Shown piece by piece: positions 16,318 to 34,955 of a stretch of DNA of 51,134 nt (its first letter is position 1; each line of letters starts with the position of its first letter). The translations under genes were made by a program, and so were the position numbers. Under the pieces are notes generated by a model. It did no database searches and was not told the DNA's origin. It was given only the letters and a program-made list of their open reading frames with translations. Origin of the DNA: a virus; IMG/VR virus record IMGVR_UViG_3300001589_000019, positions 1-51,134 of that record. The stretch is one strand, 5' to 3'.

Positions 16318-17180
16318 TATTGTGGATTAACATATTCATACCATTTTATACCGTTCGTAAGTTGTCCCACACGGTTTGGTGGTGAACCATACCCCTGAAA
16401 CACTTGATATTGATAATTATCTACAGTTAAATCAACCTGATAATAAAAGTATTCAGTTTTATTAAATTTAAACTTTTCACTCATTTCAGATTGTGGTCGA
16501 TTAATCATTCTTACGAATTGACCTGTTTTAGCATTAAAAAATTTGGCTGACATATAAAATGTATTAACATCAATATATTCTCTACTTTTTAACCAATAGA
16601 TAAAATATCCTTCTTTATCACCTATAAAATCTAAATTAAATGTAGGGGTCCTTATTATAACAGGTTTAGGTACTGATGGCGTTCCAATTTCAACTTCTTG
16701 TTTTTCACCTTGTTGAGTAGGTATTACCAATGTGAAATATAATCTTTGATTTTCAGGTTGTTTAGAATCATAAAAGTCCAACTTAAAAAAGCTTCTTTTA
16801 AATGAGTTAGCGTAGTAATACATTTCTTTATTAGTAAACGAAATTCCACTATATGTTTGATAAACTGAGGGGTCCACATAATTGTAACTTGAATCCCACA
16901 TACTAGTATTTGCTGGTGTAGTATTATTAACGTCTATTTCCCTATTAAAAAAGAAAAACTCATAAGTCGTACTAGTTTTAGGTTCACCATTAACCGTTAA
17001 CCACTGAGTATGTGAATATCTAGTAGTCTCAAAATCCTCCACAGGATTAATGATTTCCTCAAGCACATCGTTTTCATACTGCTTAATTAAATCTTCCCTA
17101 CCGAAATTATCAAAGTCAATTTCCATCGGAAGATTTATAAACGTATCTCCATTATTAACGGTAAATCTAAATTTATTCAC
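16317..17180 (-). CDS. Unrecognised baseplate-operon protein, 287 aa
   Basis: The protein is rich in Phe, Tyr and Asn (YEFFFFNREIDVNN, KTEYFYYQVDLTVDNYQYQ) and predicted mostly beta, with no signal peptide or membrane helix. The ATG at 17180 overlaps the upstream gene's end by 8 bases and the stop overlaps the next start, so its stoichiometry is probably tied to its neighbours. No family was recognised. Position makes it a virion protein. Confidence 0.7.
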   Translation of the reverse strand: MNKFRFTVNNGDTFINLPMEIDFDNFGREDLIKQYENDVLEEIINPVEDFETTRYSHTQWLTVNGEPKTSTTYEFFFFNREIDVNNTTPANTSMWDSSYNYVDPSVYQTYSGISFTNKEMYYYANSFKRSFFKLDFYDSKQPENQRLYFTLVIPTQQGEKQEVEIGTPSVPKPVIIRTPTFNLDFIGDKEGYFIYWLKSREYIDVNTFYMSAKFFNAKTGQFVRMINRPQSEMSEKFKFNKTEYFYYQVDLTVDNYQYQVFQGYGSPPNRVGQLTNGIKWYEYVNPQ

Positions 17181-18921
17181 AATTATCTATTATTGGTTGA
17201 AAGATTATGTTATTGAAAACGTTATTATTTTTCATTAGTGGCGTTTGTAAGAATAGTACCTCACCAAATGGGTAGTGTTCTCCGTTTAAAAATGGATAAT
17301 TGACACCGTTACCACTTGAATCAACAAAACCGTAAGAGTATATGTCTCTCCATCTCCATTGTTGCTCATAGTTTGAAAAGAATGAGTAGTCCGGTACACC
17401 ACTTACATCATTTTTATCGCCCACCTCAATATAATCGGAATACACTCTTAATTTTACTGAATGGTGTGGGTTATACGTATAACCATCAGGTAAATTAATA
17501 TCCGCATTAGTTGTAAAAACATCAGAATTAAATGAAAATTTATGTGATATCGGTGAAAGCACAGTTTCTTTTTGGTCAAATTCATTCCATTCACAAATAT
17601 CACCTTTCAATTCAGTACCGATAGGTAAATCTTTATTATAATAAAATCTAATATTTAATCCGTTATCACCTGTCCTATCATAAAAATCAACATCAATATT
17701 ATCTTTATTATTACCATTTATTTTAGACCACCAATCATCCACACTATTTTCTAAAAAATTAAAACTCCATCCAACTTCTAATCCTTTAGTTGGGTGAGTT
17801 GCAGGTGGTTTATTAAAGTAACCAATATAACCTTTATTAATAATCGTTATAAATAATTCAGTTACAGGTCGGTCTAAATTATCCATTAAAGAAATTATAT
17901 CAATATCCTTATCAAAAGATACTCCGAATGTTCCCCTACCATCTTTAATAGATATTCTTGAAACTTCATTAGGAGTTAATGCAGAATATTCTAATTTTTT
18001 ATTAATAGGGAAATTATTTTGTTCAAACCCCATTTTAGTTAAATCCACATTTGAAACATCCGTTAAAGTTTTATGTTTTCTAACATAATACTTAGACATT
18101 GTTTCTCCTGAATTTTTAGGGTTTATAACACGTTTTAAATTTGACATATATCCGTCACTAATTGTTACTCCAGTAAAACCATAGTTATATACATTAAGAA
18201 TTTTATCGTCATTTCCATATGCTTGGTCACCTAAACTATAAACCTCAAGAAGGTTACTGCCATTTATTGGCGTACTTAAATAAATGTAATCCCCCTGTTT
18301 TATATTATGTTTATAACCACAATAAAAGCTTAACATATTCTTACCGTTCACCACTCGGTTTTTAATTGTATAGGGTATACCTTCAGAAACTTGAAATGAT
18401 ATATTGGTACCACTTTCCTCATCAGTATATGTCATTATTTGATTATAATCGTTACTATGTGGATACGTTAGATAGGTGGACCAATTATAAGTTGAAGCAC
18501 TTTTACTTCTATATATAATATGTCCAGGGACCGCACTTACTCTAAAAAAATTAAATTCATCATACGGTGGGTAACCTGTCCAGTCACAAGCGTTTAAATC
18601 TCCTAACGCATCCACTACAGTCTTAGTAGGGTCAATTAAATATAATTCATCCTCAAACGGTTGATAGTTATTTGTTTTACCTGAAACGATATTATCAAAC
18701 AGATTAACTATTTTTCCCGCTACTCTAAACTTGGTCGATATTTGTCTTTCGTGGTCAAATCTTTCCTCTAAATTTAATAATACAGTTCTATCACCTTCGA
18801 TAATACTTTTTTTGGTATTCTCTATAGGTACTTGAATAGATAAGTCCGTATCAGGAGCACCTGCGTATCTGTCAGAACCCCTAACAATCCTTATTGTTTG
18901 ATTATTTTTTTGATTACCCAT
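17173..18921 (-). CDS. Unrecognised baseplate-operon protein, 582 aa
   Basis: It begins MGNQKNNQTIRIVRGSD and is a mixed, aromatic-rich protein (WRWRDIYSYGF near the C-terminus) without membrane segments, long coiled coils or recognisable enzyme motifs. Eight-base overlaps with both the upstream 1848-aa gene and the downstream 287-aa gene indicate translational coupling. The likely role is structural, in the outer baseplate or fiber network. This rests on context only. Confidence 0.7.
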   Translation of the reverse strand: MGNQKNNQTIRIVRGSDRYAGAPDTDLSIQVPIENTKKSIIEGDRTVLLNLEERFDHERQISTKFRVAGKIVNLFDNIVSGKTNNYQPFEDELYLIDPTKTVVDALGDLNACDWTGYPPYDEFNFFRVSAVPGHIIYRSKSASTYNWSTYLTYPHSNDYNQIMTYTDEESGTNISFQVSEGIPYTIKNRVVNGKNMLSFYCGYKHNIKQGDYIYLSTPINGSNLLEVYSLGDQAYGNDDKILNVYNYGFTGVTISDGYMSNLKRVINPKNSGETMSKYYVRKHKTLTDVSNVDLTKMGFEQNNFPINKKLEYSALTPNEVSRISIKDGRGTFGVSFDKDIDIISLMDNLDRPVTELFITIINKGYIGYFNKPPATHPTKGLEVGWSFNFLENSVDDWWSKINGNNKDNIDVDFYDRTGDNGLNIRFYYNKDLPIGTELKGDICEWNEFDQKETVLSPISHKFSFNSDVFTTNADINLPDGYTYNPHHSVKLRVYSDYIEVGDKNDVSGVPDYSFFSNYEQQWRWRDIYSYGFVDSSGNGVNYPFLNGEHYPFGEVLFLQTPLMKNNNVFNNIIFQPIIDNCE

Positions 18922-21900
18922 TTAAGTCAGCATTAAACATATATTTAGTTATGAACAAATTCATCGCACTTTTACCTTTTTTCAATCCAAAGTAATTTTG
19001 AAATGGTGAACCAACACGATACCCGTTACCAGAATCACCATCTGGTGGTGGAGTACCCGTAAAGATACCTAATGGTCGATTAAATAAGAATCCCGTCCCA
19101 AGTCCACTAGCGGGTTTTGGATAGTCATTAGCCCCATCAAATGTCTCATCTTGGTATTTCGCAGTTATCGCGTTGTCTGTTTTCCATGTATTTTGCTCGG
19201 TACCCCAAACACTACTACCATTCTGATATTTCCACCCATAATGTGGTATAATTTGACTACCAGGGTATTTAAAATTACTTGTTAAAAACGGACTTAGGGG
19301 GTTTAAAGCCGTTGGCTCATTAAAAGTTAATTGACCTGGTCCTAATACCCTTCTATCTTCAACTGTACTACCAATTGTATTATATATACTTTTAGTACTA
19401 CCCGTAAACCATATACCCATTAAACTATCATTAACTGAAATACTATCCGCATAGTTTCCGGATAGATAAGGGAGTACTCCAAACTCAGTATTAATTGAAA
19501 TCATTTGTGCGTAATCTCCATCGATTCTAGAATCAGTGAACTGATTAATAATACCACCATCTCTTGAAAATAATGTCTGTACAGACGCATCTTCCGCACC
19601 TAGTATTTTTTCAATAAATGACGTACTAATTAATCTTGAGATAATAAATAAATTTAATAATCCCGATATGTCTTGATATGATGTTGTTTCAATTTCATCC
19701 ACAATATACCCTTGGAACTCAGGAGTTAATAAAATTTCTTTTAAGAAATCAGTTTTTGGACCTAAATCCATTATTGTTGTTGGTTGAAAAATATTACCGT
19801 CATTAGCACCTATCGTAGATAACCCACCAAAAGCCCCGTAGTTACATTTTTTTGATGGTACAAAATTACCATTATAAAAGGGTGCAGACCTATAAAAGAA
19901 TGAATTAGTATCCGTATTAAAATAAAGTGGACCACAATTCTTCTTATCTACTGAAAATAATCCGCCCTCACCACTCTGTGGGTCACCACAATACTTATAA
20001 CGTTTTACTTCATTGTCACTATTATAAAAAGTTCTTTTTTGAAATGATGGCATATATAGAGTTCCGTTAATCCAATTGTTTTGAAACGAATGGGCGATTA
20101 CCCCTCGACATGCAGCAAACATAAATTTAATTCTAGTTCTCCACTCAACAAGGTAGGCGAAATCTCCTTTTTTTCCAAACAAACTAAAAATAAGGGGATT
20201 GTCAACAAAAACATAACAACCACCTTGTATTCTATCAAATTCACTACAATCTGGGTTTACTCCAAAATCATCCCCATCACCGGTATAGCATCTAAGAACA
20301 ACCAACCCATCACATGTAAAAGTTTGTAATACATCAGGTAGCCCTGAGGAGTCTGGGTCAGCTTCTAAATCACCTAAACCACCTGAACTATCGTTAGAAA
20401 CGGTCCCACCTCCACTACCACCAACTAAAGTACTTTGTCCGCTATCTCCAACCATCCAAAGAGAAAATGTTTCATTTAACATAAACGGAAAGTCTTGGTA
20501 AGTTCTTAAAGTTGCGTCAAGGCCCGTATCCCTATACGATGAAGTAGGTAATCTATCAGACCTAAATATTAATTGTGTCCTATCATTCATCTCGATGGTT
20601 GGAGTATTTAAATCAGGAACTAATGGGTCCTCATCTAACCAATATGACGGCGCGATAGTATATCCACGGTCAGTATTGACGTTTAAAGCTGAGTTTGGGG
20701 ACTTATTCGTCCATTGGTATGATGCACCATCAATACGTCCCTGACCGTTTTTCGTAGCATTAGTATTACTTATTGAATATACATAATTAGGTTGTACGCC
20801 TGACCCTTCTGCTGGCGGTAAATCTGGTGCCCATGGTCCAGGTGGAACGAACGGTATAATTGTACCATCAGCTGAGTTAGTAGAGTTAACTGTTTTACCA
20901 TCCGAACTACCCATATCCCCATTACCTGAGGTATTAAAGGTACCCAAATTATTTCCCCATTGTATACCTAATGAAGAATAATATGCAAATGCCGTTGTCT
21001 CAAATGGTGTAAATGAGTTTATTAATGTTATACACCAACTACCAAAACCACCTGAGGTTCCAGGGGTATATATGGAACTATTAAACGTTAATTCAATGTT
21101 TCCGTTTGCGGGGTCATATGAATTAACAGTAGCTATTATATAATTTGAATCATCCAAAGATAATTTTACCTCGTCTCCCGTAACATACGGTAAATTAAAA
21201 CCTATTGTAAAACCAGAGACCGTACCTTGAGGTTGCGGTAAAGGTATGGTTTGATTACTACAATTTACATATGTCGTCCCGTTAACAGGTGGGGTAAACA
21301 AAAAAGATTTATAAAATAAATTACTATTAGAATTTCCAATTCCATTATTATCAAATCTGAGATTTGATGTTAAATCATCGTAGTGACTTTCAGGTGTGTA
21401 CTGGTCTCCACTACTCTCACTAATAGGTATATTTGGAAAATAATCACCCTCAAAAACAGTTTGGGAATAAGTACTACTATCGGAATAACTACTAGCTCCA
21501 AACAACATAGACATATTAAATTTCATCTTTTGTCTTGGGGCAAAAGGGTCAACACCCTTAGCCATAAAATATATTTTTAAAGATTTATATTCCGAAAAAT
21601 ATTCTGTCCATGATAGTGATTGAATAACTTGTTTACCACCAAATGGAGCAGGTATTGGGTAACCACATGGTAACTGATTAACTTTACCAATCATATAATT
21701 CCATAATATTGATTGATTTATGTAGATGGTATTATTAGAGTTTCCCGTCATAATATCAAACGCTTCACCTATCGTCATACTACCAATTACTTGGTGATAC
21801 TCAAGACCCGTTTTAAAATTATATGACAATCCTGAAACAGGTGAGTAGAAATCCATATCAACATTCTGAGTATTACCATTAGGGTCTATATATTCGATTG

Positions 21901-24460
21901 CACTTGGAACCTGAACATAATTAGAAGGGTTGTAAGTCATAGTTCCCTCTATACTTTGGTACCCGTATTGGTTAACTGTTAATCCAGTATTATTAACGTT
22001 TTCGTCAGGTACCAATTCGGGGTCTACAAAACTTAATAATTGTCCATTATCCATATTAACTTGAGAGTCAGTAACCATTATAAGAGGCATATCTTCGTAT
22101 CTATTTACACCAGGACTTGGAGGTGGAGGAACAACACCATTAGATGCGAATTGGTCATTTATAAGGTCAACCAACATACGATTTGGGGTCATGTTATTGA
22201 TGAAATTACCTGGATTATTCACATCTTCTATCTGTTCAAAATATCGTTCCCTCTGATTCATTAAGTTTACCGCCTGAGGTAACGTTACATGATAGGCGGT
22301 TCTTTGATAAGGTGAAGTATTAGCTGAGTCCACCACAGCAAAAGGACTTTTATACCACTTATTAGAAGGTTGTGTTAAATTACCAGCCCCATCACCTGTT
22401 ATTTCAGCATCAGGGTCATATCCTGAAAATAAAACTGTATTGTAATTTGCTCCCGCAAGGGTGTCGGGGTGGGAGTTATTATTATAACAGTAATAACAAA
22501 TTTGTGAGTCAGTACCCGAATCAGGTATCGTATTACCATTAGGTAATTGAGAACTTCCAGAACATTTAATTGGTGGCTCATACGCACCAATACTAACAAA
22601 ATCAGCTAAAATACTGTCGTTGTTATTCGCCAATGCCACATTTAAATCCTCAAGAGTATCACTCTCAGCTGGCGGCAGATTAATTTCCGAACAATTACAA
22701 GCCTCACAATCGGGATAAGTAATCATAGGTAGAGTTAACCTCTTGAATGGGTTATCTTTAGGTAGTTCAGCAATAGTTTCTTTTTTACACTGACTTCTCT
22801 TAAGTTTAGTGAAGGGTATAGACGCAACAATTTTACAAATAAAGAAAATTATAACATTTACAATCTTCAAAACAAAATTTATTAAAACTCTAAAAACTGG
22901 ATATAGTAACGCTAAAACGTGCATTATCGGTAAAATAACAAAAATAACTGGTGAAATAATGTTTAGTAAAATATTAAATAAGAAGTATATTAAATCAAAA
23001 TTTCTCTGACCATCATTTGTGGGAAACCTATTATTCTCACTCGCACATGACTTATCTAAAATTTCTTTTATACCATAATGTGATGCCCTATTAATACCAT
23101 ATTTCCAACGGTCAATATGAGCTGCCGTTGTGTATACTTTATTAAACCCAAACTGATAAAATGTATCCTCACATTTTATTGCGGCATCTTTATCGTAGTA
23201 ATCCCCCCAATCTAACGAAAATGAATATGATTTATTTCTATTTATAGGATTCGTTCCATAATTATCGCCAGGACTAGTAGTACCTGTCCAATGTTCTTTT
23301 ATGTTTGGAATTAAATAATTGGCTCTCATTATTTGAGTTTGTAATCCCGCCTCATTTTGCCATTTAACCTTAAACCTGTATTTAGATTTAGTTGGTACAC
23401 CGATTGTTGGGTCGGCTGAAATTACTCTTTCTCCAAACTCATTAGTGGTTATATAATCTAAGTTCATCGGTAGGTCAATTAACCAAGCACCATTATCATC
23501 TATAACATTACCACCGTCCTCTAATTGGTATTGTTCAAGTACAGGGTCACCATTTACATCTTCCTCGATTGTGTGCCTTATGGCTAAAATCTCTCCAGGA
23601 CCCGCAACCATGTCACATAGGTTACCCGTATCTTTTTTAGGTCTACAAGTGGCTTTAATGTATTCATCATCATTTGATGACGTAATCGAACCCATAAAAA
23701 CAGAATGTGGAAGTATCTCAATACCTTGGTTAGATAAATCAAAGTCAACTCTAGTAATTCCAACGTCACACATCTCATCTTGACCCCAAAATGAACTAAC
23801 ATCGATATCTTTTATTTCGTGAACTATCTGTGGTAATGAATCAATATTTTCAGAATCTTTGAATAGTTGACCATTAAATTGAGATTTAACCCCTCTACCC
23901 ATTCTAATTAAATCGGAAGGTCTTAATGAAAATTCACCCATATTAGACAGGTCTAAATCCATAACAATTTTTTGACTACCTAACGGTACCCCTACTATCA
24001 TAAAATCGCCTGACGCATTGGTTCTTACAGAATACTTATAATACTTTTCATAAACCTGTAAAACTTCTTTACGTGTTAACACATCATCAACTGTTGGAAA
24101 TGTTCCCGTAGCATTGTGCCCATAATACTCATCCTCATAAGGTAAAAGATTATAACGATACCCATCCTCATTTTTAGCGGTTGGTGTTTTATATGGGTAA
24201 AGTGTAGAAATTATCGGGTCTTCCTCATCTACACTATCTAAAGGTATAAAAATAGAAATATGAGCATTAGGTATACCTAACCCTCCATTGGCGATAACAC
24301 GACCCACAACGACACCATAGTCGGCACAGAACTGTGTGTATAAATCTTCTTGTCTTAATTTTAAAGACAGAATTTCTAACGAATCAAAATCTTGGTCAAT
24401 TTTAACATTAATATTTCTATCAACTCCAGGTTCTGTTCTTATTCTAATTGATTTTGGCAT
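18914..24460 (-). CDS. Giant baseplate-operon protein with carboxypeptidase-regulatory-like domain and hydrophobic helices
   Basis: This 1848-aa protein opens the seven-gene operon. Residues about 48-185 resemble a carboxypeptidase-regulatory/transthyretin-like beta-sandwich ('VVVGRVIANGGLGIPNAHI' ... 'TNASGDFMIVGVPLG'), a fold frequent in Bacteroidetes outer-membrane proteins. Residues about 487-548 are almost continuously hydrophobic (LIYFLFNILLNIISPVIF, then VLINFVLKIVNVIIFFIC) with only a few basic residues, which would make two or three membrane-length helices. This is followed by a basic stretch and a Cys cluster (YPDCEACNC). The rest is long, aromatic- and Gly/Asn-rich beta sequence with scattered Cys and no recognised enzyme. 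The element TATTTATC lies 13 bases upstream of the ATG. A virion protein able to contact or enter a membrane is inferred. Confidence 0.8.
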   Translation of the reverse strand: MPKSIRIRTEPGVDRNINVKIDQDFDSLEILSLKLRQEDLYTQFCADYGVVVGRVIANGGLGIPNAHISIFIPLDSVDEEDPIISTLYPYKTPTAKNEDGYRYNLLPYEDEYYGHNATGTFPTVDDVLTRKEVLQVYEKYYKYSVRTNASGDFMIVGVPLGSQKIVMDLDLSNMGEFSLRPSDLIRMGRGVKSQFNGQLFKDSENIDSLPQIVHEIKDIDVSSFWGQDEMCDVGITRVDFDLSNQGIEILPHSVFMGSITSSNDDEYIKATCRPKKDTGNLCDMVAGPGEILAIRHTIEEDVNGDPVLEQYQLEDGGNVIDDNGAWLIDLPMNLDYITTNEFGERVISADPTIGVPTKSKYRFKVKWQNEAGLQTQIMRANYLIPNIKEHWTGTTSPGDNYGTNPINRNKSYSFSLDWGDYYDKDAAIKCEDTFYQFGFNKVYTTAAHIDRWKYGINRASHYGIKEILDKSCASENNRFPTNDGQRNFDLIYFLFNILLNIISPVIFVILPIMHVLALLYPVFRVLINFVLKIVNVIIFFICKIVASIPFTKLKRSQCKKETIAELPKDNPFKRLTLPMITYPDCEACNCSEINLPPAESDTLEDLNVALANNNDSILADFVSIGAYEPPIKCSGSSQLPNGNTIPDSGTDSQICYYCYNNNSHPDTLAGANYNTVLFSGYDPDAEITGDGAGNLTQPSNKWYKSPFAVVDSANTSPYQRTAYHVTLPQAVNLMNQRERYFEQIEDVNNPGNFINNMTPNRMLVDLINDQFASNGVVPPPPSPGVNRYEDMPLIMVTDSQVNMDNGQLLSFVDPELVPDENVNNTGLTVNQYGYQSIEGTMTYNPSNYVQVPSAIEYIDPNGNTQNVDMDFYSPVSGLSYNFKTGLEYHQVIGSMTIGEAFDIMTGNSNNTIYINQSILWNYMIGKVNQLPCGYPIPAPFGGKQVIQSLSWTEYFSEYKSLKIYFMAKGVDPFAPRQKMKFNMSMLFGASSYSDSSTYSQTVFEGDYFPNIPISESSGDQYTPESHYDDLTSNLRFDNNGIGNSNSNLFYKSFLFTPPVNGTTYVNCSNQTIPLPQPQGTVSGFTIGFNLPYVTGDEVKLSLDDSNYIIATVNSYDPANGNIELTFNSSIYTPGTSGGFGSWCITLINSFTPFETTAFAYYSSLGIQWGNNLGTFNTSGNGDMGSSDGKTVNSTNSADGTIIPFVPPGPWAPDLPPAEGSGVQPNYVYSISNTNATKNGQGRIDGASYQWTNKSPNSALNVNTDRGYTIAPSYWLDEDPLVPDLNTPTIEMNDRTQLIFRSDRLPTSSYRDTGLDATLRTYQDFPFMLNETFSLWMVGDSGQSTLVGGSGGGTVSNDSSGGLGDLEADPDSSGLPDVLQTFTCDGLVVLRCYTGDGDDFGVNPDCSEFDRIQGGCYVFVDNPLIFSLFGKKGDFAYLVEWRTRIKFMFAACRGVIAHSFQNNWINGTLYMPSFQKRTFYNSDNEVKRYKYCGDPQSGEGGLFSVDKKNCGPLYFNTDTNSFFYRSAPFYNGNFVPSKKCNYGAFGGLSTIGANDGNIFQPTTIMDLGPKTDFLKEILLTPEFQGYIVDEIETTSYQDISGLLNLFIISRLISTSFIEKILGAEDASVQTLFSRDGGIINQFTDSRIDGDYAQMISINTEFGVLPYLSGNYADSISVNDSLMGIWFTGSTKSIYNTIGSTVEDRRVLGPGQLTFNEPTALNPLSPFLTSNFKYPGSQIIPHYGWKYQNGSSVWGTEQNTWKTDNAITAKYQDETFDGANDYPKPASGLGTGFLFNRPLGIFTGTPPPDGDSGNGYRVGSPFQNYFGLKKGKSAMNLFITKYMFNADLNG

Positions 24461-24531: not shown

Positions 24532-26370
24532 TTAAGAGAAGTCGACATTTTTAAGTGACTTAGCTCTTACTTTGATATCGTTATCAGGAAAACGAATTTG
24601 ATAAACTTGATTTGGTTGCGCAAAAATTGTGTCATCAATCAATTTTATTTGTTTTGTTTGACTGTCGGAGTATCGTTGAGATGTCTGTGAGTTAGAGTAT
24701 CTACCGCCAACCTTTCCGAAAACTTTTAAGTCGGATAATGAAATAACTCCAGGGATGTCTTGAACTATTCTTCTTACATCTGAAACATTTATATTATTAC
24801 CTAATTGTTGTTTTTGGGGTGAAAAATAACTATCAACAGAGTTAATAATATTGGTTATAATTTGTCCTTGATTCTGAGTAGAATCCATAACAACTGATAA
24901 GTCAAATTCTAAATCAACAACATTAGCGCTAGATATTGCGATATAATCATTTATCATCCTATAATGTGATAGATAATTAGCTATGTTCTGTTTTAAAGTA
25001 TTAGATACCGATTCCGTTAATTTACCTTGATTATCATATGAAAGAATTTCAATTTTTATTTTATTATCTTCCTCAGTAATCGAAGCTTTAGCTGGAGCAC
25101 CATATCTACTAGGCATAGTCCTAACTAATGAGTTATAGTCATTTACAGTTACCGCTCTTTTTTGTGCCGCAAAATTAAATGATACCATATTCCTAACCTC
25201 ATCAGTGGTAGGTAAATCCCCTCCACCAATTGCTGCAGTAACATTGGTAACCCTTAAACTTTCAATGACATTTTGACTAATAGTACTAGATGGTCCATTT
25301 ACATCAAAATACGTTGTACCAAATTGAGTTAACACATCAACTCCAATGTTGGAAGCTTTACCCCCACCAATCCTATATTGAACAAATAATGTGGTGTTAG
25401 CCCTAACGGTCACACCTAATCCAATATTATTTTGATAATCCTGTATTCTTAACGGAACACCCGTTCTGGTAAATTCCTGTAATTGTTCTTCAGGTGTGGT
25501 AGTACCTCCCCCAAAATTTATTTTACAATAACCTTCAGGTGTATATTCTGATACGAATCTAGTTTCGGTTTCAATATACTTGCCGACTTTAATTCCTGGT
25601 TGGTCGGCGGGCTTGGTTGGGTCTTCAATAAATATTTTAGCCTCCGCCAAAGCGTCTACCTCATACCATCTATTAGGTGAACTAATAAACTCATCATATG
25701 TTGGTGGTGATTGGTAATTAACTCCGTCTTTTTGTATTAACGAAGTTATACTTATAACATTTTTTTCAGGTAAGAAGAACTCAAAAAATGGTTTAACATC
25801 ATTATTATTGATAACTTTTTTAAAAGTTTTAGTTAAACCATTTACCACAACTTCTCTTTTAGTCATGGTATAATTAATTAAACGATTATTAGCGTCAAAG
25901 TTCGGGGTTTTAGTACGATTAGGAAATCCCTCACTATTATATTGTGAAGTAAACTCAATATCATTAGGGTTTTCAAATACTTGACCTCCACCAATAAATT
26001 GAGAACCAGCTCTCATTGTACCTAAGTACCTTTCGTCTTCTTGGTCACCTAATGCGGGCACTGTAATTGATACGTCAACTAAGGCAATAGATGGTCGATT
26101 ACCGGGTATTTTTAAACCGTATGTTCTAGCAATATTATATATTGAAGATTTTTGTTGAGCGTATTGGAGTACCGTCTCTTGGATACTACGGTCCATATGA
26201 TAGTGTAGGTTATCTCCAATCGCAGCATTTAAATCCATAAATACCGAATAAATGGATGCGTCATTAAAATTACCTATTAAATCCGGGTAATATTGTTGAG
26301 TATAATTTATCAATTCCTGTCTTAAGGATTGAAAGTCTCTATCTGTGTATGAAATTTTACGGTTAGCCAT
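24532..26370 (-). CDS. gp6: Baseplate wedge protein, T4 gp6-like (Baseplate_J family)
   Basis: At 612 aa it is close to T4 gp6 (660 aa). The N-terminus has the wedge pattern: 'DFQSLRQELINYTQQYYPDL' (13-32), 'LNAAIGDNLHYHMDRSIQET' and 'SSIYNIARTYGLKIPGNRPS', as in gp6/P2 gpJ N-terminal domains. The middle has the Baseplate_J-type signature near 'GGGDLPTTDEVRNMVSFNFAAQKRAVTVNDY'-like sequence (about 365-405; split motif GGGDLPTTDEV and AVTVNDY). The protein forms the ring of the baseplate that opens during sheath contraction. It follows the gp25-like gene by 6 bases; gp25 and gp6 assemble into the same wedge. Confidence 0.9.
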   Translation of the reverse strand: MANRKISYTDRDFQSLRQELINYTQQYYPDLIGNFNDASIYSVFMDLNAAIGDNLHYHMDRSIQETVLQYAQQKSSIYNIARTYGLKIPGNRPSIALVDVSITVPALGDQEDERYLGTMRAGSQFIGGGQVFENPNDIEFTSQYNSEGFPNRTKTPNFDANNRLINYTMTKREVVVNGLTKTFKKVINNNDVKPFFEFFLPEKNVISITSLIQKDGVNYQSPPTYDEFISSPNRWYEVDALAEAKIFIEDPTKPADQPGIKVGKYIETETRFVSEYTPEGYCKINFGGGTTTPEEQLQEFTRTGVPLRIQDYQNNIGLGVTVRANTTLFVQYRIGGGKASNIGVDVLTQFGTTYFDVNGPSSTISQNVIESLRVTNVTAAIGGGDLPTTDEVRNMVSFNFAAQKRAVTVNDYNSLVRTMPSRYGAPAKASITEEDNKIKIEILSYDNQGKLTESVSNTLKQNIANYLSHYRMINDYIAISSANVVDLEFDLSVVMDSTQNQGQIITNIINSVDSYFSPQKQQLGNNINVSDVRRIVQDIPGVISLSDLKVFGKVGGRYSNSQTSQRYSDSQTKQIKLIDDTIFAQPNQVYQIRFPDNDIKVRAKSLKNVDFS

Positions 26371-26376
26371 ATACTA

Positions 26377-26838
26377 TTAAATATTTATAATCACGAAATC
26401 TTTTGATGAAAATGTACCATTAACAATAGTAAAGTCAATTCTTAGTTTTGCGGTGTACTCTACAGCACTATCACTGGCCACACGAAAGACTTGTCCACTT
26501 AATTCATCATAATTTATTTCTCCGGGTAATGCCTCTGTTTCGACATATGGTTTAATACTTATATCATTTATTTGTAAATTAGGTATAAATGTATCTACGG
26601 CTTGTCTAACATCCGCCTTAATGGCATCAAACGTAGGCCCATCCATTGGCTCAAAAATAAACTCATAAATACGAGTACCAAAATTGGGTAAATAATACCT
26701 ACTTCCCTTTCTAGTTAATATTAAATGTAGTAAATCCGCCCTAATCTCCTCATTAGGTGATTGAGTCAATCTAAGGTAGTCTCCTTGTAAACTATCCCTA
26801 AATGGAAAAAATACTCCGTATGTTTTACCGTCTGCCAT
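26377..26838 (-). CDS. gp25: Baseplate wedge protein, T4 gp25-like
   Basis: The 153-aa length fits the gp25/GPW family (T4 gp25 is 132 aa). Residues 41-64 carry the family core 'LTRKGSRYYLPNFGTRIYEF' followed by 'IFEP', the conserved loop that nucleates sheath polymerisation. Gp25 joins gp6 and gp53 in the inner wedge. The gene is the first after the terminator that closes the nrdBA transcript. Its ATG is 4 bases after a TATTTATG element, which leaves almost no leader if that element is the promoter. Confidence 0.93.
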   Translation of the reverse strand: MADGKTYGVFFPFRDSLQGDYLRLTQSPNEEIRADLLHLILTRKGSRYYLPNFGTRIYEFIFEPMDGPTFDAIKADVRQAVDTFIPNLQINDISIKPYVETEALPGEINYDELSGQVFRVASDSAVEYTAKLRIDFTIVNGTFSSKDFVIINI

Positions 26839-26936: not shown

Positions 26937-28643
26937 TTAACCTTCACACGCAACACATTGTAAATCATTTAAATTTAATTTTTTTCTAGCAAATGCTTGT
27001 GCTGAGTTCATTGAATGTTGATAGTATAGTGTTTTTACCCCTAATTTCCATGAGTCAATAAGTAGTTTATTCACATCTTTAGTTGGCATTTCAGGTGACA
27101 CCATTAAATTTAATGATTGTGATTGGTCAATATAATCCTGTCTGATTGCCGCTTGATTAATAATTGAAGATTGATTAATTTCTGCAAATGTTCTAAAAAC
27201 ATCTTTTTGTTCATCACTTAAAAAATCTAAATGTTGTACAGAACCATCACCCTTTTTAATACTGTCCCACGTATCTTTATTATCCATATCCATAGTACTT
27301 AACAATTCTTTTAATACTGGATTTTTAATTGTGACCTTCATTTTCGCTACGTCTTTTACGTAACAGTTAGACCAAATAGGTTCAATAGATTGTGAAACTT
27401 GACCAAGAATAAATGCTGAAGAAGTAGTTGGTGCAACTGCATTAAGTGTTACATTTCTTCTACCATACCCTTTTAGATATTCTGGTTCCCCAAATATTTT
27501 AGCCAATTCTTCTGACGCCTTGTATGATTTATCTTTAATGGTTTTAAACACCTCAACATTAAGTTTAGCCGTTTCTCTTGTGTCAAACGCTAATCCTTTT
27601 GATTGTAAAAGAGAATGCCAACCTAAAACACCTAAACCAAGAGCTCTTTGTCTTTTAGCAAAGTTATAAGCCTTTTCCATGTATAAAAACGCCATTTTAC
27701 CTTCTCTCGTCCCGTTGTCTCTTAATTCCTCTAATTTATTACAATACTCAGTAACGACAGCATCTAAAAAATAAACCATAGTTTCAACAGCGTCAGTATC
27801 TTTCCACTCATCATAATAAAGTACATTCATAGATGACAAAACACAAACAAATGATTCGTCTTCAGAATTATGTAATGCAATTTCAGAACAAAGATTGGAG
27901 TTATATATCTTAGCCCCTTTATCTTGATAAACGTCAGGTGCGTTGTTATTCATTGTATCATGAAACATAATATATGGATAACCAATCTCACCTCTTCTTT
28001 GAATTACTTTTGCCCACACTTTTCTTTTATCGTCATCTCCATCAATCATATCTTCCATGAATTTATCAGTTACGGTCACTGCATGTGTCAAATCTTGAAT
28101 TGAAGCCCCTTCTGTACCAATCTCTAAAAACTCCATAATGTCGGGATGTTCAACAGGTAAGTAAGGTGAGAACCTACCTCTACGTGTTGCTCCTTGTGAA
28201 ATATTATCCACTACACTCTGAAAAAGATTCATAAAATGAACCGCTCCTGGCGCATGTCCATTATCGGTTATCTTAGCCCCACGACCACGAATGTTACCGA
28301 AATACCCTGAAGTACCTCCACCCATTTTACTCATCTCACCAACCTCAGCCTGAGTAAATAGAATTGATTCTATACTATCGCTGACATTAGAACCAAAACA
28401 ACTAACGGGTAGACCTCTTACTTTACCGAAATTTGCCCATACTGGTGATGATAGTGAATACCATCCTTTACTCATATATTCGTAAAATTTATCGGCGAAC
28501 CCTTCTTTACCTAATAGTTTTTCTGCGTGTTTTGCAATTGTTTTTATTCTATCTAAAGGTTCCTCACCCTCACTCAAATAACCTCTACGAAGAAACGTAA
28601 TTGATTCTTCATTAATCCAATTAAAAGGTTTTCTATTTTTCAT
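26937..28643 (-). CDS. nrdA: Class I ribonucleotide reductase, alpha (large) subunit
   Basis: It reduces ribonucleoside diphosphates to deoxyribonucleotides for phage DNA synthesis. All key residues are present: the redox Cys pair C82 and C267; the active-site motif N250-x-C252-x-E254 (NLCSE, with the thiyl-radical Cys 252); the radical-transfer Tyr pair Y540-Y541 (LYYQH); and the C-terminal shuttle cysteines C563-x2-C566 (CVAC) two residues from the end. At 568 aa it is shorter than E. coli NrdA (761 aa). It starts directly at the barrel's N-terminal region, so there is no ATP-cone activity-control domain; that domain is on the partner NrdB. It lies 25 bases after nrdB and is the last gene of the operon, followed by a terminator. 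Confidence 0.97.
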   Translation of the reverse strand: MKNRKPFNWINEESITFLRRGYLSEGEEPLDRIKTIAKHAEKLLGKEGFADKFYEYMSKGWYSLSSPVWANFGKVRGLPVSCFGSNVSDSIESILFTQAEVGEMSKMGGGTSGYFGNIRGRGAKITDNGHAPGAVHFMNLFQSVVDNISQGATRRGRFSPYLPVEHPDIMEFLEIGTEGASIQDLTHAVTVTDKFMEDMIDGDDDKRKVWAKVIQRRGEIGYPYIMFHDTMNNNAPDVYQDKGAKIYNSNLCSEIALHNSEDESFVCVLSSMNVLYYDEWKDTDAVETMVYFLDAVVTEYCNKLEELRDNGTREGKMAFLYMEKAYNFAKRQRALGLGVLGWHSLLQSKGLAFDTRETAKLNVEVFKTIKDKSYKASEELAKIFGEPEYLKGYGRRNVTLNAVAPTTSSAFILGQVSQSIEPIWSNCYVKDVAKMKVTIKNPVLKELLSTMDMDNKDTWDSIKKGDGSVQHLDFLSDEQKDVFRTFAEINQSSIINQAAIRQDYIDQSQSLNLMVSPEMPTKDVNKLLIDSWKLGVKTLYYQHSMNSAQAFARKKLNLNDLQCVACEG

Positions 28644-28668
28644 ATTATTGTTTTATTATTGTTTGTTT

Positions 28669-29949
28669 TTAAAATAAATCGTTAGATGTTATCGATTTCT
28701 GTTTTTTACTGTAATTTATACTTCTTTTATTAAAAAAGTCAGTATGTTTTGTAGTTAGAATTTCATCATCAAACCACTCAGTTGTTTCCAATAGTGTTTG
28801 ATTAATTTCAAAAATACTATCAACACCTATAGAGTTCAAAGATACATTAAATCTATGTTTAATGAACTCCATTGTTTGTTTTTTAGTTAAAAATTCTAAA
28901 TCGCCTTTTTCGAAAATCCAATTAACTACTTCAGTCTCCGCCTCATAAGCCTCTTTAGTCGCTATCACTAAATCTTCAACTAATTGTGGTGTCCACCAAT
29001 CAGGATTTTCTTTTTTAATTAAATTAACTAATTCAAACCCAAATTCAGCATGAATATTCTCTTCTTTAGATGTTGCCTCAACCGCGTTACTAATACCTTT
29101 TAATTTATTTTTATGTTTATTAAATGACATAATAACTAAAAATTGTGAAAATAGTGATACGTTTTCAACAAACATTGAGAATAACACTATAGACTCAAAG
29201 TATTCTTTATCATCGACCGATTTAGAGTTTGAGATAGCCTTTTCTAAGTATTTAATTCTTCTTCTCACTTGTGGAACTTCTAACAAATTTTCAAATTCAC
29301 CATTAAGCCCTAATAATTGGATTAGGTGTGAGTAAGCGTCCGCATGTCTCACTTCCGATTCGGCAAATGTAGCACCTACATTACCAATTTCAGGTTTTGG
29401 CATTCTTTTATAAATGTCACCCCAAAATGATTTAACTGCAACTTCAATTTGTGAAATCGCTAACATCGCTCTTTCAACTGCAGATTTTTCTTTTTCATTT
29501 AAATGTACTTTATAGTCTTGGATATCAGACGTATAATTAAATTCTGTGTGTACCCAATAGGAGTGTCTAATTGCGTCCACATATTCATTTAAATTTGGGT
29601 ACTCATAAGGTTTAAGATTAGTTCTTTTTGAAAAAATGTTAGGTCGATTTTTAGAACGATAAATAATATATTCTTTTGCTACATCATTTAATCCATTATC
29701 CATCAATTTATTCTCTACCATATCATGAATCTCATCCACATTAGGAATTCTTTCTTTATTACCTCTAAAAAGTCCTTTAGTTGTGAGTCTAGCTATTTTT
29801 TCAGCCATACCCTCATCTACTTTATCTATACTTTTCATCGCGTTTAAAATGGCCATTTCAATCTTTTCAGATTTAAAAACCACTTTATCTCCACTTCTCT
29901 TTATTACATAACGAATGTCTTTAGTGACACTATCAATTAGATTGTCCAT
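28669..29949 (-). CDS. nrdB: Class I ribonucleotide reductase beta (radical) subunit with N-terminal ATP-cone
   Basis: Residues about 10-100 form an ATP-cone (VIKRSGDKVVF near the start, then 'VENKLMDNGLNDVAKEYIIYR'), the nucleotide-sensing domain usually found on NrdA. The ferritin-like domain follows with the metal ligands E169, E199, H202, E262, E297 and H300; Tyr 206 is in the tyrosyl-radical position (ESEVRHADAY). A Tyr near the C-terminus (INYSKK) fits radical transfer to NrdA. Fusion of the ATP-cone to NrdB, with its loss from NrdA, is documented in Leeuwenhoekiella blandensis and related flavobacteria (class Id, dimanganese enzymes), so ATP/dATP would switch activity through this subunit. 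Metal type cannot be read from sequence. It is 22 bases downstream of the helicase gene. Confidence 0.95.
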   Translation of the reverse strand: MDNLIDSVTKDIRYVIKRSGDKVVFKSEKIEMAILNAMKSIDKVDEGMAEKIARLTTKGLFRGNKERIPNVDEIHDMVENKLMDNGLNDVAKEYIIYRSKNRPNIFSKRTNLKPYEYPNLNEYVDAIRHSYWVHTEFNYTSDIQDYKVHLNEKEKSAVERAMLAISQIEVAVKSFWGDIYKRMPKPEIGNVGATFAESEVRHADAYSHLIQLLGLNGEFENLLEVPQVRRRIKYLEKAISNSKSVDDKEYFESIVLFSMFVENVSLFSQFLVIMSFNKHKNKLKGISNAVEATSKEENIHAEFGFELVNLIKKENPDWWTPQLVEDLVIATKEAYEAETEVVNWIFEKGDLEFLTKKQTMEFIKHRFNVSLNSIGVDSIFEINQTLLETTEWFDDEILTTKHTDFFNKRSINYSKKQKSITSNDLF

Positions 29950-29971
29950 ATACTATTGTTTTTAAAAAATT

Positions 29972-31351
29972 TTATATTTTACTTTCCCTTTGTTTTCTCT
30001 TTTGTAGTAGTTCTTGAATACGTACTTTGTTTTTCTCTTCTTTTTGTTCTTCCATACCTAAGAAGGTTACACTACTATCCGTATCAATTTCTATCATTTC
30101 GTTATCGAATTTGCAATTTTCAAATACAATACCATCTTTACCAATTCTTGATTTGGTAATAGCTATTGTTGCTAAATTCATTTCTTTCTGCTGTAGGGAT
30201 TTAGCGATAGAAATAATAACGTGACCTACTTGGGCCTTTTTAATTGAACCACCCATTTGGTCTGTGGTTACAACTTCAGAAGATATTGAGGAACGATTCC
30301 CTTGGGTAGCCGTCCAACCAGCAATATCTAATTCATGACACATAGATTCAAACCCTCTCATAACTGAACCTTCACTTTTCCATTCGTCCCCTAAATTTTT
30401 ATCAGGAACGATACAGTCAATATAATCAACTACAACTAAATCTATTTTAATTCCTTCAGCAACCATTTTACGTATTTGATTCTTTATCTGATTCATCGTT
30501 AATGTATCTGAAGGTAATTTTTTTAGTATAAGTCTGTTAGGTGCATTTTCTTTAATTTGTCTAACTTTTTCTAAAACCTCTTCTCTTTGTACTGACAAAT
30601 TATCAGGTGCGATTTTTGTCCACATAGTGAAATGTTTTCTTTGTATAATTTTAGGGTTATCCTCAAAAAATATTTGTAATACGTTATAACCTAAGTTAAA
30701 CGCATTATTTGCAATTTTACTAAGAACTGTAGTTTTACCTACACCTGTCGGTGCTAAAATAACACCAATTTCACCTTTTGCTAATCCACCTTTTAGTAGA
30801 TTATCAATACCTGTTATACCGATAGGAATTGGATGTCTGAAGTCATCATCTAATACCTCGTCTAAATTAAAAAATACATCCGCAGTTCCCGTATCTACTT
30901 CCCCAACTTGTAACGCCTCTCTAACCATTTCTTCTAAATGGTCATAAGATTCAAAATCACCTTTGTCGATAATTTTTTGAGCTTTTGACATTACTTTCTG
31001 TAACTCTTGTTGTTTACAGAACTTTAAAGCCTTTTCTTGAACATACTGATACCCATCTTCAGGGGCATCAACTACCTGAGTTATCATGTCTAAGACCATT
31101 TTTTGAGCCATAGGTGATGTAACCTCAGATTTAGTAATTTGTTCAAGTGTTGAGAATGAAGGAGCGTGTTCATATTTGTGATAATACTCCTTGGTCATCT
31201 GCATAATTAACTTAAAATATTGATTGTCAAAGTACTTAGGTTCCAACACATCAACAATAGAACTTGCAAAATCCTTATAAAGGATAATATTGTTAAGTAT
31301 TTGTAGTTGAAATGTATTACCGAGGTAACCAAAATTCTTTTCTTTTGACAT
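29972..31351 (-). CDS. gp41: Replicative DNA helicase, T4 gp41/DnaB family
   Basis: The 459-aa length matches T4 gp41 (475 aa). The RecA-type motor has Walker A 'APTGVGKTT' (200-208) and Walker B 'LVVVDYID' (D309), followed by 'GWTATQGNRSS', the usual Gln-containing motif of DnaB helicases. The N-terminal ~150 residues are helical, as in the DnaB primase-interaction domain, and the C-terminus is a charged tail (RIQELLQKRKQRESKI). The protein unwinds the fork as a hexamer with the phage primase, which is not in this window. It is flanked by the 154-aa gene (31 bases upstream) and nrdB. Confidence 0.94.
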   Translation of the reverse strand: MSKEKNFGYLGNTFQLQILNNIILYKDFASSIVDVLEPKYFDNQYFKLIMQMTKEYYHKYEHAPSFSTLEQITKSEVTSPMAQKMVLDMITQVVDAPEDGYQYVQEKALKFCKQQELQKVMSKAQKIIDKGDFESYDHLEEMVREALQVGEVDTGTADVFFNLDEVLDDDFRHPIPIGITGIDNLLKGGLAKGEIGVILAPTGVGKTTVLSKIANNAFNLGYNVLQIFFEDNPKIIQRKHFTMWTKIAPDNLSVQREEVLEKVRQIKENAPNRLILKKLPSDTLTMNQIKNQIRKMVAEGIKIDLVVVDYIDCIVPDKNLGDEWKSEGSVMRGFESMCHELDIAGWTATQGNRSSISSEVVTTDQMGGSIKKAQVGHVIISIAKSLQQKEMNLATIAITKSRIGKDGIVFENCKFDNEMIEIDTDSSVTFLGMEEQKEEKNKVRIQELLQKRKQRESKI

Positions 31352-31382
31352 ATTTTATTGAGTTTTAATCTGTGTTTGTAAA

Positions 31383-31847
31383 TTATAAATATGGGTAAAC
31401 TAGTGAATGCCCCAAGTACTTGTAAGTTAAATTTTCACTTGAGAAAGTGTCAGTTAAGTTACGAAGTAACTTTTTTAGGTGTGGGCGTACATCCACAGTG
31501 TATCTAGTCTTTGGTGGGTATAATTTAGCGTCCCAAATTCTATGACAAATTGTCTCATCTCCTATCTTAAGGTATAGGTTAAAATTCTCATCGCCTTCAG
31601 TATTTGAAGTTTCTAAAAGTTCGGGGTTGTTTATAATTTGACCCATGTTTTCCGTAAGGTAGTCAGATGATTTAACCTTCAAGTCCTCTTGAATTATTTC
31701 AGAGAATCCCTTGATTACATCATAAAGTTCAACACTTCCCCTCGCCTTAGGATTATAACCCCTGACATTAAAATACCTTTGTACAACAAAGTTGTTGTTT
31801 AGAGTCATTAAGAACTCTAATTTGGTTGTTTCTATTTTTTCTTTCAT
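31383..31847 (-). CDS. Unrecognised protein in the replication operon, 154 aa
   Basis: It is a soluble, mixed-charge protein beginning MKEKIETTKLEFLMTLNN, with 'YNPKARGS' near residue 31 and a C-terminal basic segment 'RPHLKKLLRNL'. No Walker, zinc or HTH motif is visible. Its ATG overlaps the stop of the exonuclease gene (ATGA), so it is translationally coupled and is probably a replication or recombination accessory factor. In T4 the small helicase loader gp59 and mediator UvsY are genes of this kind and size class, but no sequence motif supports either identity. Confidence 0.75.
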   Translation of the reverse strand: MKEKIETTKLEFLMTLNNNFVVQRYFNVRGYNPKARGSVELYDVIKGFSEIIQEDLKVKSSDYLTENMGQIINNPELLETSNTEGDENFNLYLKIGDETICHRIWDAKLYPPKTRYTVDVRPHLKKLLRNLTDTFSSENLTYKYLGHSLVYPYL

Positions 31848-32860
31848 ATTAAACGTTTTTTAGTTTTAAATCTTCTTTTTTCTTTTCTTGTTAATTTCAT
31901 AAAGGGGGTTAAAAATTCAACCCACGCGTTGTCATGTTTTGGTAGATACTTAAAAATTCCATCTTTCATCATCATCCTCATTAAATTTTTATAACCTCTA
32001 CCATCAGGGTCTAAATTTTCTGTATGGTACTGTTTTATAATTTCTTTTGAGTCCTCAGTAATTAATGGTTGAGACAAATCTACGAGTTTTTTATTAATTA
32101 TAAAAAATTCTTCACCATAAATTCCTCTTTTAGTTTTACCTGAGAGTAAATTTTGTAAAGCTCGATTGTCTTTATCATTTTTATGTAGTTCCTCCGCACG
32201 TTTTAAAATATCATCAATAGTTATGACACTATCAACTATTTCAGGAAATAACTTAACAAATGTTTTTTCACCCATGTATCGAATACCATCAATATTATCT
32301 GATTTATCGCCAGATATAATTTTAAATGTTGATATGTTTGCATGCGGGATAGATATTTCCTTTAAAGGTACCAAATCTCCATTTTTAAGAGTTATCTTCT
32401 TCATGGGTTGGTACACTTCTACTTTATCAGAGATAAGTTGTGTGAGGTCCTTATCTGAAGAATAGATAGTCTTATACTCATTCTCAGATATGTGACAATA
32501 ATATGCGATTAAATCATCACTTTCAGTGTTTTTAACAGAAACTTGTCTGATAAACATTTCTTCAAGATATGCTTTAACTTGTTGTACTTGCCACTCAAAC
32601 GATTCTTTTTTTGCATCGTTTAATGTTTGCTTACGATTACCCTTATAATCTGGTGAAATAAGTTTTCTTTGGTACGAGTTGTTTTCCCCATCCCAAAACA
32701 CAATTACCTTATCATGGTTGTGTTCATTAAGAAACTTTTTAATTGTGTTGACAAAATGGTAGATACCTCCAATATGTTTACCCTCATGGTAGAAATCTCT
32801 AACTCCATGAAAACCTATTTTAAATAAATTATTTCCGTCAATTAATAATGTTTTAACCAC
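31844..32860 (-). CDS. rnh: 5'-3' exonuclease / RNase H, FEN family (T4 rnh-like)
   Basis: The 338-aa length is near T4 RNase H (305 aa). The acidic metal-binding residues of the FEN/PIN fold are in order: D8 (LLIDGNN), D57 (VFWDGEN), E113/D115/D116 (TESDDLIAYY), D136/D138 (SSDKDLTQL) and D185/D188 (ISGDKSDNIDGI, the helix-hairpin-helix start). It removes RNA primers and 5' flaps from lagging strands. A basic C-terminal tail (TRKEKRRFKTKKR) may bind DNA. It lies 18 bases after uvsX and shares an ATGA overlap with the next gene. Confidence 0.92.
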   Translation of the reverse strand: MVKTLLIDGNNLFKIGFHGVRDFYHEGKHIGGIYHFVNTIKKFLNEHNHDKVIVFWDGENNSYQRKLISPDYKGNRKQTLNDAKKESFEWQVQQVKAYLEEMFIRQVSVKNTESDDLIAYYCHISENEYKTIYSSDKDLTQLISDKVEVYQPMKKITLKNGDLVPLKEISIPHANISTFKIISGDKSDNIDGIRYMGEKTFVKLFPEIVDSVITIDDILKRAEELHKNDKDNRALQNLLSGKTKRGIYGEEFFIINKKLVDLSQPLITEDSKEIIKQYHTENLDPDGRGYKNLMRMMMKDGIFKYLPKHDNAWVEFLTPFMKLTRKEKRRFKTKKRLI

Positions 32861-32878
32861 TTTATTTGTGTTAAATTG

Positions 32879-33883
32879 TTACACTTCTTGTTTTTCTTCC
32901 TCTAACTTAAAGTCACCTTCAACTCCGATAACTTTTTTCCAATACTCAGATTGCTCACTTTTGTATTTTTCAATTGATTTTTTTTCCTCAGTACTCTCTT
33001 TGCCCGCTATGAATCCGTGAGGTGTTACAATTATTTTTCCATCAGCATATCCTAATCCATTAATGTGATTTTTCATTACTGATATTTTTGTTCTGGACGC
33101 GAACTTTACTTTTCTTTTGTTCTTAACTGCCGCTATAGTTGTTGTTCCTGCGTTTTTCTGATTACCAAATAGAAACACTAAAGATGAATTTAACCATATT
33201 GATTCACCTCCCTTAGCTTTAATTTTAGGTTGACCAAATGGTGAGTCAGGTAACGCAACCCACGGTTGATTAACAATTAATAAAGTATTCTCATACTTTG
33301 AGTCAGCTTTACGTGAACCCGATATTCTTTGGTTTATACCCATTCCTATCTTATCCGCCAATGTCGAAGCATTATGTTGTTTACCTCCTTTACCATCAAA
33401 TGTCATTTTACATGGTACTGAACCTACAGAGTCCCATAAGAAAAGTAAGTCATACTCTAACTCACCCTTATTTTGTGCATCTAATAATTCATTAATATAG
33501 TCAGTTATTTGCTCTATATAATTAAAATTATTATTAAATATAAAGAACCCATCCCAATCTAATTCACCTGTTTCTTCATCAACCACTTCATCACACTCGA
33601 AACCCATAAGTTTTGCGTGTTCAAAAGACCATTTTTGTTCTGTAATAATGAATACAGGTAATACACCTTTTTTTTGGGCATCTACTGCCGCCTTTACTAA
33701 TGCAGTTGTTTTACCTGTATCTGAATGTCCTAAAAACATATTTAAATGACCTATTGCCGGTCCAGGTAATCCAACGGCATCTAAGAAATCCTCACCCAAA
33801 TCAAAAAACCTTTGTGGTTTGTATTTTGCGGATGTAGAAAATTTCTTCTTTATACTACTAAAATCTTTTTTCTTTATTGCCAT
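32879..33883 (-). CDS. uvsX: RecA-like recombinase, T4 UvsX family
   Basis: The 334-aa protein has Walker A 'GHSDTGKTT' (52-60) and Walker B 'LLFLWD' (146-151), with 'TEQKWSF' (about 81-87) and 'NQPWVALPDSPFGQPKIKAKGG' split across the L2 region (NQPWVAL, then KAKGGESIW). The C-terminal ~40 residues are highly charged and end EEEKQEV. It catalyses strand invasion for recombination-dependent replication and works with the gp32-like protein encoded just upstream. A stable hairpin separates it from gene 32. Confidence 0.93.
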   Translation of the reverse strand: MAIKKKDFSSIKKKFSTSAKYKPQRFFDLGEDFLDAVGLPGPAIGHLNMFLGHSDTGKTTALVKAAVDAQKKGVLPVFIITEQKWSFEHAKLMGFECDEVVDEETGELDWDGFFIFNNNFNYIEQITDYINELLDAQNKGELEYDLLFLWDSVGSVPCKMTFDGKGGKQHNASTLADKIGMGINQRISGSRKADSKYENTLLIVNQPWVALPDSPFGQPKIKAKGGESIWLNSSLVFLFGNQKNAGTTTIAAVKNKRKVKFASRTKISVMKNHINGLGYADGKIIVTPHGFIAGKESTEEKKSIEKYKSEQSEYWKKVIGVEGDFKLEEEKQEV

Positions 33884-33902
33884 ATTTTTTTAAATTGATA
33901 AA

Positions 33903-33932
33903 GATGGTGACAACATAACTGTCGTCACCATC
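33903..33932 (-). terminator. Hairpin between gene 32 and uvsX (attenuator or weak terminator)
   Basis: The arms GATGGTGAC (33903-33911) and GTCACCATC (33924-33932) form a 9-bp GC-containing stem with a 12-base loop, 16 bases after the gene 32 stop. On the minus strand it is followed by TTTATCAATTT and not by an unbroken T-run, so full termination is doubtful. It could protect the 3' end of an abundant gene 32 transcript or reduce read-through to uvsX. Confidence 0.6.
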
Positions 33933-33948
33933 ATCATGTTAGTTGTTA

Positions 33949-34809: not shown

Positions 34810-34859
34810 AATTTTTCTTTTTTCTCTGTTATTATTTATTTATCGTTTACTCAAGTAAT

Positions 34860-34887
34860 AATATAACAAAGAAAGTCATGAAGTCAA
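34860..34887 (-). promoter_or_regulatory. Sigma70-like promoter for the gene 32 operon
   Basis: On the minus strand TTGACT (34887-34882) and TATATT (34865-34860) are separated by 16 bases, each one mismatch from consensus. This places a transcript start near 34853 and leaves a leader of about 44 bases before the ATG at 34809. The element sits directly after a terminator, where a new start is needed. If the host is a Bacteroidetes the usual -33/-7 motif would be expected instead, so the assignment is moderate. Confidence 0.55.
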
Positions 34888-34893
34888 ATAAAA

Positions 34894-34916
34894 AAAGACC
34901 ATTTAGAATGGTCTTT
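34894..34916 (-). terminator. Rho-independent terminator after the 203-aa gene
   Basis: The perfect 10-bp arms AAAGACCATT (34894-34903) and AATGGTCTTT (34907-34916) enclose a 3-base loop. On the minus strand the stem is followed by TTTATTTGAC, extending a run of seven T. It separates the hub-gene transcript from the gene 32 operon. Confidence 0.9.
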
Positions 34917-34955
34917 AATTTTTATTTATAAACTTTATATAATATGTAAGGGGTA

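Follow-up and report, generated by a model that had tools for sequence, protein, structure and literature searches.

Gene content of the locus

The window, that is the whole stretch of DNA from an uncultured virus analyzed here (51,134 nucleotides, positions 1 to 51,134 of IMG/VR record IMGVR_UViG_3300001589_000019), carries the gene of a 1848-aa protein between a gp6 homologue and the gene of a 582-aa protein without a recognizable family (Table 1). A tail-tube gp19-like protein and a hub protein of the T4_baseplate family are encoded at the end of the window. Synteny was counted in the eligible non-redundant loci of three homologue lineages: the gp6 homologue lies directly upstream in 150/150 and a gp25 homologue is present in 149/150, while the 582-aa gene follows directly downstream in all 85 loci eligible for that count. 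This gene order points to a baseplate role at the position of T4 gp7, so that the description of a giant baseplate protein given by the earlier note is strongly supported.

The 648-aa protein is likely the tape measure, as inferred from its composition and position. Neither this protein nor its relatives in eight other records contain a transmembrane (TM)-like segment, with 19-residue Kyte-Doolittle means (KD19) of at most 1.23 and 60-residue means (KD60) of at most 0.59. The 1848-aa protein was also considered as a tape measure and rejected, since its N-terminal domain is beta-rich, its gene follows gp6 and the 648-aa ORF fits better. Replication and nucleotide genes are situated between the two tail gene blocks, and the tail-region protein of 1586 aa has a weak OmpA-family match at residues about 822–873 (E 0.0055, under the curated cut-off), a possible peptidoglycan-binding part. 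Asn, Ser and Thr make up 61% of the 973-aa ORF, and the 731-aa antisense ORF inside it is probably a by-product of this composition.

The host probably belongs to the Bacteroidota. A large protein of 1919 aa encoded downstream, probably a tail fiber or adhesin, carries 56 Cys along with SprB repeats. A gp6 relative occurs in six INPHARED records, four of them from Flavobacterium phages, and of the four GTDB loci two belong to MAGs of Bacteroidota. The host assignment is derived from these SprB repeats, Flavobacterium relatives and MAGs.

Table 1. Features of the window, and hydrophobic ORFs of lineage B relatives, with their positions.
Feature	Position	Strand	Basis or content
1848-aa baseplate-module protein, gene position of T4 gp7	18914..24460	-	ORF; synteny
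N-terminal domain (N-domain), residues 1–475, beta-rich, with a possible Ig/carboxypeptidase-regulatory-like part	23036..24460	-	AlphaFold2, pLDDT mostly >90
Upstream anchor N477-x-x-P480-x-N482-D483	23012..23032	-	conservation
Predicted hydrophobic helix, residues 490–547, polar stripe with 3.6-residue period	22820..22993	-	hydropathy, AlphaFold2, conservation
H514, mid-helix near-invariant His, lineage A	22919..22921	-	33/33; 75/79
Basic linker TKLKRSQCKK, residues 551–560	22781..22810	-	sequence; further hydrophobic sequence instead in long variants
Downstream anchor LPMITYPDCEACNC, residues 577–590, three invariant Cys	22691..22732	-	conservation
C-terminal region, residues 1380–1848, W-I-N-G-x-L-Y at 1463–1469	18917..20323	-	profile-profile
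gp6 / Baseplate_J homologue, next upstream gene	24532..26370	-	PHROG 219 E 8.6e-23; PF04865 E 1.9e-8
gp25 homologue	26377..26838	-	PF04965 E 1.1e-11
582-aa protein, conserved next downstream gene	17173..18921	-	85/85 loci
648-aa helix-rich protein, likely tape measure	47664..49610	-	composition, position; without TM-like segment
1586-aa tail-region protein	42816..47576	-	
Replication/nucleotide genes	26937..35567	-	ribonucleotide reductase large and small subunits, DnaB-like helicase, UvsX-like recombinase, SSB
1919-aa protein	5594..11353	-	SprB repeats
973-aa ORF	2493..5414	-	
731-aa antisense ORF	2986..5181	+	
Hydrophobic lineage B ORFs	L222 509–1192; L176 3398–4006; L231 2313–2975; L235 2357–3019		

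Homologues and domain organization

One search of IMG/VR returned 329 relatives of the 1848-aa protein and a later one at least 594, and two more distant homologue groups lie beyond this main set. After redundancy removal at 85% and with a minimum length of 700 aa, the non-redundant set comprises 170 proteins, which divide into lineage A (80, including the protein of the window), lineage B (65), lineage C (21) and four singletons. Lineage B members L204, L215, L218, L182 and L190 are found on contigs of 361–413 kb, and thus the family extends to jumbo phages. In lineage B, four strongly hydrophobic ORFs of 203–228 aa have also been found upstream of the gene.

The 1848-aa protein gave no match in Pfam, PHROG, NCBIfam, PDB sequences or INPHARED. 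Likewise, tblastn detected no cultured-phage homologue with the whole protein or with three distant relatives, and residues 1–479 gave only hits with E near 1. In BFVD, A0A8S5LA66 of Myoviridae sp. ctPuP5 was matched by both structure and sequence (E 4e-49, 33% identity); this homologue is an uncharacterized metagenomic protein with no assigned function. The Foldseek search of the PDB with residues 1–645 recovered no solved baseplate fold and only pilin-like Ig domains, which match the N-domain at E 1e-4 with low TM-scores, and Pfam CarboxypepD_reg is matched in the N-domain of relatives at E 0.002–0.005, under the curated cut-off.

Two conserved motifs flank the hydrophobic segment. N477, P480 and N482 of the upstream anchor are at least 90% conserved among 150 sequences of all lineages, N477 and P480 being invariant in 33 lineage A members, and P578, P583, C585, C588 and C590 of the downstream anchor are present in 33/33. 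Twelve additional Cys show little or no variation in lineage A (32–33/33), namely 45, 231, 272, 282, 430 and 472 and, toward the C-terminus, 1383, 1391, 1405, 1415, 1451 and 1491, suggesting metal sites or disulfides. The C-terminal regions of the lineages are related by profile-profile comparison (A vs. B, probability 93.9, E 1.6e-7; B vs. C, probability 97.7). The C-terminal profile found no match in L079, L080 or L082 by hmmsearch, and the relation emerged only by profile-profile comparison.

The hydrophobic segment and its conservation

Residues 487–548 correspond to window positions 22817–23002 and enclose a strongly hydrophobic core, residues 490–547. The best KD60 of the 1848-aa protein is 2.10, beyond all of 2000 shuffled versions of the protein (maximum 1.53, mean 0.70), and the runner-up protein of the window reaches only 0.61; both the ORF and the position of the stretch, noticed earlier at residues about 487–548, are thereby confirmed. 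Chance composition as its source was ruled out by the shuffles together with the conservation in homologues, and a frameshift or wrong frame by the many homologues with an intact full-length frame. The earlier note had also described a basic turn and a Cys cluster after the stretch; both are present, but the cluster DCEACNC (residues 584–590) lies at 22691–22711, outside the interval assigned to the feature.

Segments of this kind had been regarded as rare in soluble tail proteins, which holds for 60-residue stretches and not for 19-residue ones. Of 758 further ORFs with 200 aa or more on the plus strand of the homologue loci, 4 exceed a KD60 of 1.3, compared with 71% of the 1848-aa protein family. 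At the shorter length, T4 gp7 (KD19 2.07) and T4 gp29 (KD19 2.20) carry TM-like segments; the KD60 of T4 tail proteins is at most 0.82 (gp29).

The proposal could be checked by asking whether homologues retain the hydrophobicity, and 167/170 non-redundant members do. These are the 166 proteins that make up lineages A, B and C, together with singleton L240, and each of them has a 19-residue window with a Kyte-Doolittle mean of at least 1.68 directly after the N-domain. Two observations here count against a membrane role. The segment is absent from the three short singletons L079, L082 and L241. In L079 and L241 the middle part is missing, so that the W-x-x-G motif region follows on the N-domain, and no viral relatives of L082 appeared in the scan. 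In addition, the segments of lineage B are shorter (median KD60 1.34).

The sequence of the stretch varies more than that of the N-domain: lineage A members have mean identities with the query of 0.51 and 0.29 in the two 40-residue blocks over the stretch, compared with 0.58–0.78 in the N-domain. Where hydrophobic sites of the stretch have changed, 79% stay hydrophobic (62% expected) and 3.7% become charged (12% expected), the expectations being taken from BLOSUM62 with shared ancestry left uncorrected. The N-domain as a control lies at expectation, with 57% kept hydrophobic against 59% expected and 11% charged against 13%. This excess, seen in the stretch and not in the N-domain, argues that hydrophobicity itself is maintained, and the alignments indicate that selection is acting on hydrophobicity rather than on sequence.

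A single predicted helix with a polar stripe and its possible burial

AlphaFold2 was applied to single chains with a 150-row alignment, although packing of the helix within an oligomer is conceivable; the resulting model has a mean pLDDT of 85.6 and a pTM of 0.73. An earlier model of residues 1–1180 from 33 sequences had a poor N-domain (mean pLDDT 58). Residues 490–547 are confidently predicted to form a single unbroken helix of 58 residues (pLDDT about 90). The column-mean hydrophobicity has a period of 3.60 residues across 59 residues, a signal stronger than that of all 2000 permutations. Such a constant phase speaks against a division into two helices in this protein, for which the two or three TM helices first proposed are hence replaced by one. 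The helix has one polar side (mean KD about -0.4 to 0.6), and two thirds of its surface is strongly hydrophobic, the polar stripe of lineage A consisting of N496, N500, S503, H514, R524, N528 and N535. At 1.5 Å per residue the helix would measure about 87 Å, far beyond one bilayer, which counts against a membrane role.

The main rival explanation starts from the same features. The helix may be a permanently buried structural element of a multi-chain wedge or hub bundle, in which neighboring baseplate helices would shield two thirds of its surface; its polar stripe would face solvent or lumen, and it would never meet lipid. The model is a straight 58-residue helix rather than a hairpin, and the stripe stays in phase along the whole length, as in a bundle helix; the wedges of contractile systems moreover have a conserved core in which helices like those of gp6 and gp7 form bundles (PMC10457771). 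T4 gp7 is the closest case by gene position after gp6, large size, several Cys and one TM-like 19-mer (locus L318, 8061–11159; residue 886). Its GenBank note records a predicted integral membrane domain, yet gp7 is a solved baseplate wedge protein, so that TM-like hydrophobicity is no proof of membrane insertion. However, the segment of gp7 is far shorter and sits close to the C-terminus, the KD60 of gp7 being 0.32 against 2.10 here, and hhalign of five family segments against gp7 gave nothing above 5% probability. Lineage A also includes a second type, in which the Cys-bearing linker is swapped for hydrophobic sequence between the same anchors, leaving about 100 nearly uncharged residues. These long variants look like several membrane helices, and a soluble core would hardly account for them. 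Nor was a long hydrophobic partner surface found among the other large ORFs of the homologue loci. On balance, permanent burial seems a doubtful account of the segment, though one to be taken seriously.

Comparison with other tail proteins

Hydrophobic elements of phage tails are already known, and the nearest functional analogue is gp9 of phi29. In phi29, hydrophobic loops of gp9 exit the tail and build a barrel of helices that is hydrophobic on the outside (PMC6542822). The L-loop of gp9 resembles the present segment in being a hydrophobic and helical insert, some tens of residues long, within a protein of the distal tail (PMC6542822), but phi29 is a short-tailed phage, the KD60 of gp9 is only 0.64, and no homology was seen.

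The tape measures TP901-1 TMP (PMC5099701) and T4 gp29 are likewise tail proteins with TM-like segments. Here, in contrast, the segment belongs to a baseplate-module protein encoded between gp6 and the 582-aa gene, and the likely tape measure is without one. Lactococcal phage TP901-1 cannot do without the first hydrophobic region of its tape measure, for which the authors of the study favor chaperone recruitment over membrane insertion (PMC5099701). By analogy, the segment might chiefly recruit a dedicated assembly chaperone and have no role at the host membrane. This seems very improbable: no chaperone gene was recognized beside the gene of the 1848-aa protein, the downstream 582-aa protein being without a recognizable family, and the two-sided anchoring and the polar stripe exceed the needs of a chaperone site.

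The segment might instead anchor the protein in the inner membrane of the producing cell during baseplate assembly and later be pulled out or covered. An internal segment so hydrophobic is generally expected to insert co-translationally unless protected; should the helix prove as hydrophobic as its sequence suggests, early insertion would have to be prevented in the producing cell, and a chaperone is predicted. Such an assembly anchor is unlikely, since released virions must extract or cover the segment and T4 baseplate wedges form from soluble subunits in strict order (PMC3004832).

Among cultured phages, the baseplate modules of Flavobacterium phage immuto and Microcystis phage Mel-JY01 show the same succession of gp25 and gp6 homologues, but they are without the 1848-aa protein, and a hydrophobic insert is missing from the proteins that follow gp6 in them; proteins 159 and 161 of immuto show no homology to the family profile. 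In the papers searched, no such element was found to be near-universal in a protein from the baseplate module of T4-like contractile phages.

A proposed role at the host membrane

The reading proposed here is that of a membrane-inserting helix in the gp7-position baseplate protein of a contractile, T4-like phage whose host probably belongs to the Bacteroidota; we regard this reading as about equally likely to prove right or wrong. It draws on the KD60 of 2.10, the conservation in 167/170 members, the selection for hydrophobicity, the striped unbroken helix and the long variants of about 100 residues, as well as on the baseplate synteny, the tape measure without a TM-like segment and the phi29 gp9 precedent. 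Residues 490–547 would act as a membrane-active helix held between the two conserved anchor motifs, in a manner comparable to the phi29 gp9 loop or to the hydrophobic regions of tape measures. We infer that the protein is part of the virion, where the helix would be shielded within the baseplate; adsorption or contraction would then expose it, and it would insert into a membrane of the host envelope. Several copies may anchor the baseplate or line a passage, with the narrow polar stripe directed at the axis of the bundle and the broad face of I/L/V/F turned toward lipid. In T4, the wedge remains at the cell surface and the tube crosses, which counts against such an insertion.

The likely tape measure has no TM-like segment, T4 gp29 has one, and this difference fits, without proving it, a membrane role that may have moved to the baseplate protein. 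A bolder version, offered tentatively and rather unlikely in its full form, is that the membrane-crossing task has shifted from the tape measure to the baseplate, where copies around the baseplate would insert a ring of striped helices into the host envelope upon contraction and so form a channel or anchor. If true, this would be a baseplate-borne membrane channel or anchor of a kind not described for contractile phages.

The family is a large and widespread structural protein outside the coverage of Pfam, PHROGs and NCBIfam, with hundreds of environmental members, including some on contigs above 300 kb, and a near-universal membrane-like helix in the baseplate module. The near-constant greasy helix at a fixed spot suggests that part of the baseplate may enter the host membrane during infection. 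The helix bears on the question of how contractile phages pass the inner membrane, and it offers a precise, mutable element for probing envelope crossing by T4-like contractile phages of Bacteroidota.
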